Shown: piece after piece, positions 4,448 to 33,534 of the stretch | Layout: each line of letters begins with the position of its first letter | Numbering within the stretch: position 1 is the stretch's first letter | Assembly: GCA_004366385.1 (NCBI GenBank) | Contig: SIRU01000021.1 | Location: 1 to 35,762, forward strand | DNA length: 35,762 bases | Direction of reading: 5' to 3' | DNA from: Actinomycetota bacterium | GTDB taxonomy: Bacteria; Actinomycetota; Thermoleophilia; Gaiellales; Gaiellaceae | Program-made: the position numbers and the translations under genes | Notes under the pieces: model-generated | Seen by the model: only the letters and a program-made list of their open reading frames with translations | The model's database searches: none | What the model was told of the DNA's origin: nothing

Positions 4448-5191
4448 TCACCGAGCCGCTGCGACCACCGTGAGCGTCGCCGTTTGGACGGTCAGCGCGG
4501 CGTTGCGTGTAGGAGCTACGACGACATTTGCGCGCCTGCAGCTGACCCGGACGTCGTAGCTGCCCGCCGGCTGGTCGACGGCAGCCGTGAGCGCGATCTG
4601 GCGGAAGACGACCTGGCCCGCATCCGTCTTCTCGAACGTCACGTCGGCGAGCTGCCCGATCGGCGTGTACACAGCGCCGACGCCGACCTCGAGTCGGCAG
4701 AACGCCTGCCCCGCGTTGTCGCCTGCGGTGGTCGGCTTGAACACGGCGAGCGTGGCGGTCGCCACGATACGCGCCGGGAACCCGACCGCGAGCGGGCCGG
4801 AGTGGTTGGGGCCGGCGGAGCCAAGATCGACCGCGACTTGCTCCACCGTCGTGAGCGAGAGGTTGGCCGTCCGCATCCCGAAGCCGGACGCCGTAGGCCC
4901 TGCCGGCCCGACGGCTCCCTGAGGCCCTGCAGGCCCCGCGGGACCCGCGGGACCTGCGGGCCCCCGGGATCCCTGCGGCCCGCGGGCTCCGCGCTGCCCC
5001 TTGAACAGCGCGACCGTGCTCTTCGCCACCTTGGGCGGCGTGACCGCTCCCTTCTTCAGCTGCGCGGCGCCGACGCTGTTTCTCGGTAGGGCGGCAGCGG
5101 CGGCGAAGGCGGTGCCGCTCAGGGCCACGAACAGCGCGAGCACCGCGACGACCATCGCCGGCGCCGGCCGGCGTCCCAGGATGAGTCTCAT
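4448..5191 (-). CDS. Secreted protein with short collagen-like tract
   Basis: The 247-residue product starts at an ATG behind an AAGGGGGA site. Residues about 10-33 (APAMVVAVLALFVALSGTAFA) form a signal peptide. A motif-rich linker of the type NSVGAAQLKKGAV follows, then a collagen-like Gly-X-Y run (about residues 65-92, GARGPQG...GPAGPAGPAGP) and a beta-rich C-terminal domain with a pair of cysteines. Such proteins are frequent and multi-copy in Thermoleophilia; they are thought to be exported surface or matrix proteins, but their role is not established. The 30712-31248 protein has the same plan. An inverted repeat AGGGCAG-N10-CTGCCCT at 5240-5263 upstream could be an operator. Confidence 0.8.
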   Translation of the reverse strand: MRLILGRRPAPAMVVAVLALFVALSGTAFAAAAALPRNSVGAAQLKKGAVTPPKVAKSTVALFKGQRGARGPQGSRGPAGPAGPAGPAGPQGAVGPAGPTASGFGMRTANLSLTTVEQVAVDLGSAGPNHSGPLAVGFPARIVATATLAVFKPTTAGDNAGQAFCRLEVGVGAVYTPIGQLADVTFEKTDAGQVVFRQIALTAAVDQPAGSYDVRVSCRRANVVVAPTRNAALTVQTATLTVVAAAR

Positions 5192-30116: not shown

Positions 30117-30170
30117 CCCGGCGGCGCGATGGTGTGCCCCGAAGCGAACGGCGAAGGGAGGACACGAGAC

Positions 30171-30581
30171 ATGGGCGTTGGCAAGGTTGCAGTTCTGATT
30201 CTGGCGCTGTCGATCGGCGCCTTCGGCCTCGGAGCGGCGCTCGCGGACTCCCGCAGCGCCGATCCCGGCGACCAGATCGAGCTCGAGCAGGTGCGCAAGA
30301 ACGAGCTCGACGACGAGGTGGAGGTCGCCGAAGAGGACGACCGGGGAGACGGAGACGACACGCCTGGTGACGACGGCACGAACGGCGGCGACAACACCGT
30401 CGCACCCGCAGGCGCCGGAGGCGCCAAGGCGGGCGGCGACGGCGACGACACCGCCGGCGACGACGGCACGGGCGGCGGCGACAACACCCGCGCGGGCAAG
30501 AGCGCGGGTGGCGGCGGCGCGGGTGGAGGTGGCGGCGACGACACCGGTGGAGGCGACACCGGTGGAGGCGACGACACGTAG
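30171..30581 (+). CDS. Acidic Gly/Asp/Thr-rich exported protein
   Basis: The 136-residue product has a hydrophobic N-terminal segment (residues about 4-25, ending GAALADS) that can act as signal peptide or anchor. A strongly acidic stretch (ELEQVRKNELDDEVEVAEED) follows, and the rest is low-complexity: the block GDDT-x-GDDGT-x-GGDNT occurs twice, then glycine runs and GGGDDT/GGGDT repeats. No domain is recognisable. The Asp/Gly repeats could bind calcium loosely, which is a guess. ATG at 30171 has AGGGAGGA nine bases upstream; I prefer it to the ATG at 30129. It is divergent from the two-component operon and carries matching operator repeats. Confidence 0.7.
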   Translation: MGVGKVAVLILALSIGAFGLGAALADSRSADPGDQIELEQVRKNELDDEVEVAEEDDRGDGDDTPGDDGTNGGDNTVAPAGAGGAKAGGDGDDTAGDDGTGGGDNTRAGKSAGGGGAGGGGGDDTGGGDTGGGDDT

Positions 30582-30711: not shown

Positions 30712-31248
30712 CTACGCGGCGACGGTCGCGCAGACGATCCTCACGTTGAGCCGCCAGTTCTCCAGGTACAGCGCGGGCAGCTCGTGCGCGGCGACGAACC
30801 AGGTGGACGCGGAGACCGGGTAGCTCCCGACCACGCCGACCTCCTTCGGAAGGCCGGAGACGAAGGCGCCGCCGCCGACGACCTTCTTGCCGGCCGGGCA
30901 CGCGGCCAGGACGGTCTTGAAGGCCACCGAGTTGAGGACCGACTGCGCCGTCACGATCTGGTGGCCGCTGAGGCCTGCGGGGCCCTGCGGACCGGCGGGG
31001 CCCTCGGGGCCCTGCGGGCCTTCCGGGCCGGCGGGGAACGAGCCGCCCTTGATGTCGACGGGCTTGATGGTGCCGTTCTTGATGTCGGCCGACGTGAGGG
31101 TGTTGTCCTTGATGTCGATGCCGGTGAGCGAGCCGTTCTTGACGTTCGCGCCGGTGATGAGCGCGCCGGCGACGGCCGTGCCGGTGAGCGAGAAGAGCAG
31201 TGCGAGGGTCGCGATGACGGTGGCGGGGCTGAGGGCGCGGATCTTCAT
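30712..31248 (-). CDS. Secreted I-K-N-G-S repeat protein with short collagen-like tract
   Basis: The 178-residue protein has a signal peptide (about 1-28, ending GTAVAGA), then four copies of a roughly ten-residue repeat (NVKNGSLTGI, DIKDNTLTSA, DIKNGTIKPV, DIKGGSFPAG) that can form a short beta-solenoid, a collagen-like GPEGPQGPEGPAGPQGP tract and a C-terminal beta domain with two cysteines. It shares its plan with the 4448-5191 protein. ATG behind AAGGAGGAG. Its promoter is a mirror copy of the one in front of the sigma-factor unit, making it the prime candidate target of that sigma factor. Confidence 0.82.
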   Translation of the reverse strand: MKIRALSPATVIATLALLFSLTGTAVAGALITGANVKNGSLTGIDIKDNTLTSADIKNGTIKPVDIKGGSFPAGPEGPQGPEGPAGPQGPAGLSGHQIVTAQSVLNSVAFKTVLAACPAGKKVVGGGAFVSGLPKEVGVVGSYPVSASTWFVAAHELPALYLENWRLNVRIVCATVAA

Positions 31249-31283: not shown

Positions 31284-31320
31284 TGCCCGTACAACCCACC
31301 CGCCGGCGATTCCTTACGCG
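31284..31320 (-). promoter_or_regulatory. ECF-type promoter of the repeat-protein gene
   Basis: Reading the minus strand: CGCGTAAGGAA (31320-31310), 12 bases, GGGTTGTACGGGCA (31297-31284). The AAGGAA -35-like and GTTGTAC -10-like words are 14 bases apart, a spacing suited to ECF sigma factors. Transcription would start about 35 bases before the ATG, leaving room for the ribosome site. Confidence 0.7.
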
Positions 31321-31385
31321 AGTCGCGAGATTCGTTGGAGATGGCCGTAGGGGCCGGGCGTACGCGGCCCGCGAAAACCACGGGC

Positions 31386-31422
31386 CGCGTAAGGAACCGT
31401 GACCCCGCGGGTTGTACGGGCA
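31386..31422 (+). promoter_or_regulatory. ECF-type promoter of the small ORF/sigma unit
   Basis: CGCGTAAGGAA (31386-31396), 12 bases, GGGTTGTACGGGCA (31409-31422) is the exact inverted copy of the promoter at 31284-31320, while the 12-base spacers differ. The start of transcription would fall near the ATG at 31422. Confidence 0.7.
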
Positions 31423-31604
31423 TGAGCACACACCACACCCAGCACAGCCACCTCGACGTCGACGAGGCCTGGATCGCCGAGTGGGCGGCCGAGGGCATCG
31501 CCGCGATCGAGCGTTACCTCGCCAAGCACGCGGCCTTCGCCGAGTACCTCGAGACGAGAGCCGTCGTACACTCGGACGATGGCGACCGTCGCCCGGACGC
31601 CTGA
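31422..31604 (+). CDS. Small His-rich ORF before the sigma gene (60 aa)
   Basis: The product MSTHHTQHSHLDVDEAWIAE continues as an amphipathic helix (EWAAEGIAAIERYLAKHAAFAEYLE) and a charged end. Five of its first ten or so residues are His or Thr. There is no signal or membrane segment and no known family. Its ATG coincides with the end of the ECF-type promoter, implying a leaderless start. It overlaps the sigma-factor gene by 26 bases in another frame. It could be a metal-responsive or regulatory peptide of the sigma system, which is speculation; codon use and overlap make it plausible but not certain. Confidence 0.5.
   Translation: MSTHHTQHSHLDVDEAWIAEWAAEGIAAIERYLAKHAAFAEYLETRAVVHSDDGDRRPDA
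31567..31572 (+). promoter_or_regulatory. Internal -10 box TACACT of the sigma-factor gene
   Basis: TACACT, six bases, then the ATG at 31579, inside the small upstream ORF. This gives the sigma gene a second, housekeeping-type leaderless start besides the ECF-type promoter. Confidence 0.5.
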
Positions 31605-33534
31605 CGCAGAGCTCCTCACCCGGCTCCGCGAGCGAGACCGCGCCGCCTGGGAGGAGCTCTACGCCGCGTACCAGCCGCGGCTGCGCGGCTTCGCCTTCCG
31701 GCTGGCCGGGAACGTGCACGACGCGGACGACCTCGTGCAGGAGACCTTCGTCCGCGCCGTGCCGCGCCTCGACAAGCTCGACCCCGAGACCGCGGACGTC
31801 GGCGCCTACCTGTTCACGACCATGCGGAACCTGTACTTCAAGCAGGTCGAGCGCGAGAAGCGCGCGCAGCCGGTCGCGGAGGTGCCCGAGCCGTCACTCC
31901 CCGCGCCGATCGAGGACGACCCCGTCCGCTCCACGCTGCTGCAGGGCCAGCAGGAGGAGGTCCGCGCCGCGAACGCGCGCCTCCAGCCGCGGCAGCGGCT
32001 CGTGCTCGCGCTCCGGGAGCTGGAGGAGCGCTCGTACGCGGAGATCGGCGAGCTCGTCGGGATGAAGGCGAACGCGGTCGCGCAGCTCATCTTCCGCGCC
32101 CGCGAGAGCCTGCGCGCCGAACTGCGGCTCGTGCAGGTCGACCCCGACCGGCTGCCGGGCGCCTGCCGCGCCTACCTGCCGCTGCTCGCCGCGCACCTCG
32201 ACGGCCAGCTGAAGGGCGCGAAGCGGGACGAGACCCTCGCCCACCTCGAGGGCTGCGAGCGCTGCCAGGCGTCGCTCGAGGACATGCGTGAGGCGTCGCG
32301 CCGCTACCGGATCCTGCTGCCGCCGATCGCCGCCGACGAGAGCCGGGCCGCGATCGACGAGCGGTTGACGAGCGCCGGCTACTGGAACACGGGCTGGCGG
32401 CGGCTGGTCGCGCGCAGCCCCGCGAAGATCGCCGCGCTCACCGTCGTCGTGCTCCTCGTCGGGAGCATGGGCACCGGGCTCGGCGTGGCGCTCTCCGGCG
32501 GGCCGAGGCCCACGTCGGCGCCCCTGTTGAAGCCGCCGGCGGTCGAGCCGACGACCGAGCAGCCCGCCACCGGGACGACGCAGCCCACGGGAACCACCGA
32601 GCCCGCGGCGACCACGACGGCCACGCCGCCGGCGACCGAGACGACGCAGCCCACGGAGACCACGGCACCGGCCAAGACCGTGACCGAGCCGGCGGCCACC
32701 GAGCAGGAGACCGAGCAGGAGCCGGAGCCGGCCACGACCGAGCCGCCCGCCGACACCACCGCCCCCGTCGTCCGCATCACGAAGGGGCCGCCGCCGAAGA
32801 CGACGTCGGCCACCGCGCGGATCGCCTTCGCGGCCGACGACGAGGACGTCACCTTCGCCTGCACGCTGGATCAGGGCGAGCCCGTGCCGTGCGCGAGCCC
32901 CGTCTCGCTCGCCGGGCTCACGGCGGGCGCGCACACGTTCTCGGTGCGCGCGACCGACGAGGCCGGGAACGTGAGCAAGCCCGCGTCGGTCTCCTGGACC
33001 TACACGCCGCCCGACACCACCCCGCCCGTCGTCACCATCGACTCCGCGCCCCCGATCGCCGGGCCCCGCTCGGACGCGACCTTCGCGTTCTCGGCCAACG
33101 AGCCGGCGACGTTCGCGTGCTCGCTCGACCGCGCCGCGTTCGCCCCCTGTACGAGCCCGGTGACGTTCCAGCGCCTGCCCGCCGGGACGCACGTCTTCTC
33201 CGTGCGCGCGACCGACCCGGCCGGGAACACGGGCACCGCGAGCCACACGTGGACGATCGGGGCCCCGCTTCCCGACCTCGTCATCACCGCGTTCTCGCGC
33301 TTCAGCATCACGATCGCGAACCAGGGCGGCGCGATCGCCGGCCCGTCGGTGCTGACGATCACCAACGTGGGCACGTTCAAGGTGCCGAGCATCGCGCCGG
33401 GCGCGACCGTTACGTTCTCCTGGAGGACGTGCCAGGAGGCCGTCTACACCGCCGTGGTGGACGCGACCCAGGCCGTCGCCGAGTCGAACGAGAAGAACAA
33501 CGCCGCCACCCTCAAGAACACCTGTACGCGATAG
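31579..33534 (+). CDS. ECF sigma factor fused to anti-sigma-like, membrane and Ig/CARDB domains
   Basis: One 651-residue chain carries sigma region 2 (about 12-95, with NVHDADDLVQETFVRA), sigma region 4 (about 134-183, RQRLVLALRELEERSYAEIG), a zinc-finger anti-sigma-like segment (Cys196, then His222-x3-Cys226-x2-Cys229), a membrane helix (about 283-307), a Thr/Pro/Glu linker (310-393), two Ig-like domains (about 394-478 and 479-562, each with a cysteine pair) and a CARDB-like domain (about 563-650). This is the plan of the C-terminally extended, membrane-held ECF groups of actinobacteria (ECF52/53-like), but with Ig/CARDB outside. An outside signal could release the sigma part. ATG behind TACACT; no Shine-Dalgarno. 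Confidence 0.9.
   Translation: MATVARTPDAELLTRLRERDRAAWEELYAAYQPRLRGFAFRLAGNVHDADDLVQETFVRAVPRLDKLDPETADVGAYLFTTMRNLYFKQVEREKRAQPVAEVPEPSLPAPIEDDPVRSTLLQGQQEEVRAANARLQPRQRLVLALRELEERSYAEIGELVGMKANAVAQLIFRARESLRAELRLVQVDPDRLPGACRAYLPLLAAHLDGQLKGAKRDETLAHLEGCERCQASLEDMREASRRYRILLPPIAADESRAAIDERLTSAGYWNTGWRRLVARSPAKIAALTVVVLLVGSMGTGLGVALSGGPRPTSAPLLKPPAVEPTTEQPATGTTQPTGTTEPAATTTATPPATETTQPTETTAPAKTVTEPAATEQETEQEPEPATTEPPADTTAPVVRITKGPPPKTTSATARIAFAADDEDVTFACTLDQGEPVPCASPVSLAGLTAGAHTFSVRATDEAGNVSKPASVSWTYTPPDTTPPVVTIDSAPPIAGPRSDATFAFSANEPATFACSLDRAAFAPCTSPVTFQRLPAGTHVFSVRATDPAGNTGTASHTWTIGAPLPDLVITAFSRFSITIANQGGAIAGPSVLTITNVGTFKVPSIAPGATVTFSWRTCQEAVYTAVVDATQAVAESNEKNNAATLKNTCTR

Follow-up and report, generated by a model that had tools for sequence, protein, structure and literature searches.

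The stretch of DNA analysed here (the window, 35,762 nucleotides) carries two outward-facing copies of a long promoter word, one upstream of an operon consisting of a small ORF and a fused ECF sigma gene, the other upstream of a gene for an exported repeat protein. We consider it likely (probability about 0.8) that a self-activating, membrane-tethered sigma factor reads both promoters and governs a very small regulon of surface proteins. Both sites would then be -35/-10 promoters recognised by the product of the adjacent sigma gene. The relevant features of the window are:

31386..31422, + strand: predicted promoter of the small-ORF/sigma operon, with CGTAAGGAA at 31388-31396, a gap of 13 bases (N13) and GGTT at 31410-31413
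31284..31320, - strand: predicted mirror promoter of the exported-protein gene, with CGTAAGGAA at 31318-31310 and GGTT at 31296-31293
31422..31604, + strand: small ORF, 60 aa, with homologues directly before the sigma gene in three relatives (G171, G245, G040) and in family f5
30712..31248, - strand: exported repeat protein with a short collagen-like stretch, 178 aa, with the Shine-Dalgarno site AAGGAGGAG before the ATG at 31248
31579..33534, + strand: fused sigma protein, 651 aa, with sigma regions 2 and 4, a zf-HC2 domain, one transmembrane helix, Ig-like repeats and a CARDB domain
31657..31863, + strand: sigma region 2, aa 27-95 (Pfam PF04542, E 4.2e-17)
31954..32112, + strand: sigma region 4, aa 126-178 (Pfam PF08281, E 5.9e-11)
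32164..32268, + strand: zinc anti-sigma domain, aa 196-230 (Pfam PF13490, E 2e-6)
32437..32493, + strand: predicted transmembrane helix, about aa 287-305 (hydropathy)
33295..33510, + strand: CARDB domain at the outer end, aa 573-644 (Pfam PF07705, E 6.1e-10)

The word CGCGTAAGGAA-N12-GGGTTGTACGGGCA is found at 31386-31422 (+) and 31284-31320 (-), pointing outward. As the original prediction had claimed, all 25 specified bases are shared by the two copies (25/25) and the spacers differ; we find the spacers to be unrelated. The match extends all the way through the predicted start bases, which are A31422 (where the small ORF begins) and 31284, respectively. Shuffled window sequences gave no match with up to 3 mismatches, and the window's own genome (2.73 Mb) contains just these two sites. 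The whole-genome search proposed with the original prediction, for AAGGAA-N14-GTTGTAC, likewise returned exactly 2 sites in 2,731,342 bases, both in the window, versus none for the reversed pattern; the assembly is 97% complete, so that a count of two could miss a site. For CGTAAGGAA-N13-GGTTG the same genome has 2 sites at zero mismatches, none at one mismatch, and numbers close to the control when more mismatches are allowed. Seven of the weaker sites were inspected as possible extra targets and rejected: all lie in or across long open frames, and none is followed by an exported-protein gene. Across ten sites, CGTAAGGA and GGTT are invariant and the gap between CGTAAGGAA and GGTT is always 13 bases, which fits the -35 words (AAC/GGAA type) and -10 words (CGT/GTT type) of ECF sigma factors (PMC8103513). 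The + promoter is kept in G245 and G040 with its spacing to the ATG unchanged.

A sample of 399 genomes of the class was searched for the exact core CGTAAGGAA-N13-GGTT, which is present in 5 of them. A profile of the sigma part yields four proteins at 413-464 bits, encoded in the window genome, G171, G245 and G040, with the next best at 220 bits. All four genomes with an ortholog (>400 bits) contain the core, as compared to 1 of the 395 genomes without (Fisher p 4.8e-9, a value that overstates independence as the four genomes share ancestry); the fifth motif genome, G147, has a single site within a coding region. Approximately 9 distinct sites are seen in the four genomes versus about 0.03 expected from the density of the reversed pattern at an assumed mean genome size of 3 Mb, with the site pair in G171 counted as one place (two contig ends overlapping by about 335 bases, with some differences). 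The promoter words and their near-exclusive co-occurrence with the sigma gene are established from sequence, and a chance origin of the word is ruled out by the shuffles, the reversed-pattern controls and the 399 genomes. The comparison with relatives, also proposed with the original prediction, therefore agrees with it. In the window's own genus, neither the motif nor the sigma gene occurs in any of the 10 sampled genomes, some of which are incomplete; the module is hence patchy.

Fused sigma factors that are less closely related, scoring about 170-220 bits (G026, family f5 and others), were considered as carriers of the same word, which was not borne out: the exact core is absent from their tested genomes, and the word is not found upstream of any of the 26 distant fused sigma genes inspected. 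A contig search with the sigma part returned two Microbacterium loci alone, with 33-35% identity. We note that five loci of family f5 (L148, L153, L165, L150, L147) harbor pairs of a small ORF and a fused sigma gene, with sigma parts about 40% identical. The CGTAAGGAA-GGTT word is absent at these loci; the pairs probably use a different promoter word that is derivable in the same way.

Rather than being scattered at random, every site in the four ortholog genomes is located just upstream of either the small-ORF/sigma operon or an exported-protein gene, some of them unlinked. Here, exported denotes a hydrophobic signal-like N-terminus, judged by eye and hydropathy and not by a signal-peptide program; such signal-peptide-like N-termini are established from sequence for the target proteins. 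The sites in relatives, four of them in G245, are:

G245: before the small-ORF/sigma operon
G245: before the gene for an exported protein of the beta-lactamase family (579 aa), 1.85 kb upstream
G245, second contig: before a 314-aa exported protein
G245, third contig (C183): before a 191-aa protein built like the collagen-like protein of the window
G171: before a single operon in which the gene for a 413-aa exported protein is followed by the small ORF and then by the sigma gene
G040: before the small-ORF/sigma operon
G040: before an exported protein of 147 aa carrying an LPFTG-like anchor

The 413-aa protein of G171 has Ig/fn3-like matches and is homologous to the 314-aa protein of G245. In G040, a site with one mismatch (GGAC for GGAA) precedes another exported repeat protein. 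The closed module of the original prediction is therefore an adequate description of the window genome, but not of the relatives, which add other unlinked exported targets. At the G245 operon (contig C178, loci L068/L098), the promoter word directly follows the end of a strong inverted repeat, GAGGAGCC-ctccgg-GGCTCCTC, which is perhaps the terminator of the upstream gene for the exported beta-lactamase-family protein.

The 178-aa exported protein of the window combines NGxLTxxDIK-type repeats with a short Gly-X-Y run. Its description as an exported repeat protein stands, whereas the term collagen-like rests on this short run, for which the Pfam Collagen match is below the cut-off; we found no relevant literature on collagen-like proteins in this class. 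Between the predicted start of the - promoter and the ATG lies a predicted leader of 36 nt that contains AAGGAGGAG. The protein has the same build as its counterpart on C183 of G245, with a resembling C-terminal part, and the same promoter word stands before both genes. The window genome (G000) also encodes 7 partial paralogues (C2:30280, C48:78891, C39:76109, C61:34298, C19:4838, C60:15541, C58:14366), of which the C19 copy corresponds to 4838-5170 (-) of the window. None of the 7 has an exact motif site; the word is found at the copy beside the sigma gene alone. Convergent with the collagen-like gene, positions 30129-30581 (+) hold an ORF of 150 aa without a Pfam match; its product has a signal-like N-terminus and ends in a long repeat tail rich in Gly, Asp and Thr (GGDDT...).

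ECF sigma factors possess sigma regions 2 and 4 and lack regions 1 and 3. The fused protein has Pfam matches to r2 and r4_2, and TIGR02937 (sigma70-ECF) matches above its cut-off. ECF sigma factors often, though not universally, recognise and activate their own promoter; here the sigma protein's own operon carries the promoter word, conserved in the ortholog genomes. The order of domains is likewise established from sequence. The transmembrane helix is found by hydropathy at the same place in the three other orthologs, and a Thr/Pro-rich linker connects it to the Ig-like repeats. The zf-HC2 domain contains an Hx3Cx2C signature (H222-x3-C226-x2-C229) whose H, C and C are invariant in all four orthologs, the recognition mark of zinc-binding class I anti-sigma domains (PMC7406223). 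The zinc segment also gives weak matches to RsiW and to 3hug chain B (E 0.04 each). In an AlphaFold model of the cytoplasmic part, the sigma and zinc-domain helices are confident at a low overall pTM (0.49). Foldseek matches of the model are ECF sigma chains, many from sigma/anti-sigma complexes, which makes a state in which the zinc domain occludes the sigma domains plausible.

Repeats in predicted giant proteins of the window genome share about 45-51% identity with the Ig-like portion of the ectodomain. Giant open frames full of Ig-like repeats are located on G000:C6 (7008 and 5595 aa), G000:C9 and G000:C27, and probably encode giant surface proteins. The identity of the repeats suggests, as a speculation, that the sensor might touch the same surface layer its target belongs to.

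The system represents a variation on the fused sigma factors already known, those of the ECF48/52/53 type. As in ECF52, an actinobacterial group that includes SCO4117 of Streptomyces coelicolor, a sigma domain, a zinc finger, a transmembrane segment and a long Pro-rich outer part are combined in one chain (PMC5826349). The same one-chain feature set is found in the window's protein. A defining feature of ECF52 is absent, namely the C-terminal carbohydrate-binding module, in place of which Pfam finds Ig-like and CARDB domains; we found no relevant literature on CARDB-sigma fusions. The window's unit also differs from ECF52 in its co-transcribed small ORF. There is evidence of positive self-activation for SCO4117, which affects many genes, with CSGYN-17-SRHA as a proposed motif, in contrast to the two promoters with CGTAAGGAA-N13-GGTT described here (PMC5826349). 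ECF48 and ECF53, with a C-terminal zinc anti-sigma domain and one or two transmembrane helices, are matched by general architecture alone, and release by proteolysis is expected for ECF48/52/53 (PMC8999054). IutY of Pseudomonas putida (ECF243) is likewise a single chain of sigma factor and membrane anti-sigma factor, and its cytoplasmic part has been demonstrated to be released through Prc and RseP; IutY differs in serving iron-siderophore surface signalling, in its other domains and in belonging to another phylum (PMC8999054). SigW/RsiW and other pairs of ECF sigma factor and zinc anti-sigma factor share the Hx3Cx2C class I domain, but as two separate proteins instead of one chain (PMC7406223).

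A possible mechanism is as follows. The cytoplasmic sigma domains, fused to their own zinc anti-sigma domain, would be tethered by the single transmembrane helix to the Ig-like/CARDB domain outside the cell. As long as no signal is received, the anti-sigma domain would hold the sigma domains off RNA polymerase. An event outside the cell, probably resulting in cleavage in or near the membrane, would free the sigma part, which could then act at the + promoter, giving small peptide and more sigma factor in a positive feedback, and at the - promoter, giving the exported surface protein. In the relatives, the same word would serve the respective sigma operon together with one to three further exported proteins. 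Within this scheme, we infer direct promoter recognition by the sigma factor, as well as the start sites, the release and the function of the small peptide.

The promoters might be real and nonetheless be read by another ECF sigma factor, with the fused sigma protein merely one of the targets. Candidates are not lacking, as the window genome encodes many ECF sigma factors, but other ECF genes occur in all genomes of the class, yet the word is confined to genomes with this ortholog, and a different reader would need a regulon made of this unit alone. We regard this explanation as improbable. The chances are smaller still that the word is not a sigma promoter but an operator to which an activator or repressor binds: operators can also be long identical words at two places, but the sites consist of two separate words with a fixed, ECF-typical spacing, are always oriented to the gene and keep a constant distance of 8 nt to the ATG in three genomes, and no regulator gene adjoins the site in the window. 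The identity of all 25 motif bases could also be the trace of a local duplication of one intergenic segment whose second copy has no function. This explanation is contradicted by the comparative data and deserves hardly any weight, as the spacers of the two copies are unrelated and the word is also present at unlinked genes of other genera and of another family.

A self-activating sigma factor with two promoters thus remains the preferred reading. For a fused membrane sigma factor, it provides a near-complete wiring diagram from sequence, comprising sensor-sigma, promoter word and small regulon, in a lineage that has been little studied and that we guess from gene content to be Thermoleophilia/Gaiellales. 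Even for SCO4117, the best-studied fused sigma factor of this kind, it is uncertain which promoters are the targets: the two motifs proposed for its group disagree (PMC5826349). The promoter word described here is unusually clean, and a regulon of two promoters that share its clear 25 bases is directly testable in a heterologous reporter.

The small ORF shares its last 26 bases with the sigma gene. It has the appearance of a genuine, conserved gene, with identities over the aligned part of 74% (G171), 63% (G245) and 38% (G040; E 6e-10 in a single comparison). Its ATG begins exactly 8 nt after GGTT in three genomes (the window's, G245 and G040), the position at which an ECF promoter is expected to start transcription. 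The operon mRNA is therefore probably leaderless, beginning at the A of the start codon, a property that the original prediction had missed. At the exported-protein genes, GGTT and ATG are separated by 33-56 nt (44 in the window), in most cases with a clear Shine-Dalgarno site; the small ORF of G171, which stands downstream in its operon, has a Shine-Dalgarno site too. As a preferred minimum reading, translation of the small ORF would lead into the overlapping sigma gene; possibly the peptide is also a sigma-binding modulator. More specifically, it might act on the fused sigma factor, for example by binding the sigma domain or the anti-sigma domain and so setting its threshold, having been recruited from a small-protein family that across the class otherwise occurs away from sigma genes. 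We consider this rather doubtful.

The small ORF was also considered as a fixed partner of sigma genes, and rejected because most homologues stand alone, beside a DUF2231-like gene. Many homologues of about 48 aa (pattern ...ETWLEDWAGAGVAEIEAYLAKHAAFLSFLE...) are found away from sigma genes, in numerous genomes of the taxonomic family, for example at L070, L073, L076, L081 and L084, and this protein family has no match in Pfam or NCBIfam. At all three lone loci inspected (L070, L076, L084), the gene for the protein of about 48 aa is located between a divergent kinase-like gene and a gene for a DUF2231-like membrane protein, and is preceded by a conserved upstream element around GAGCCGAACGGCCCAT.
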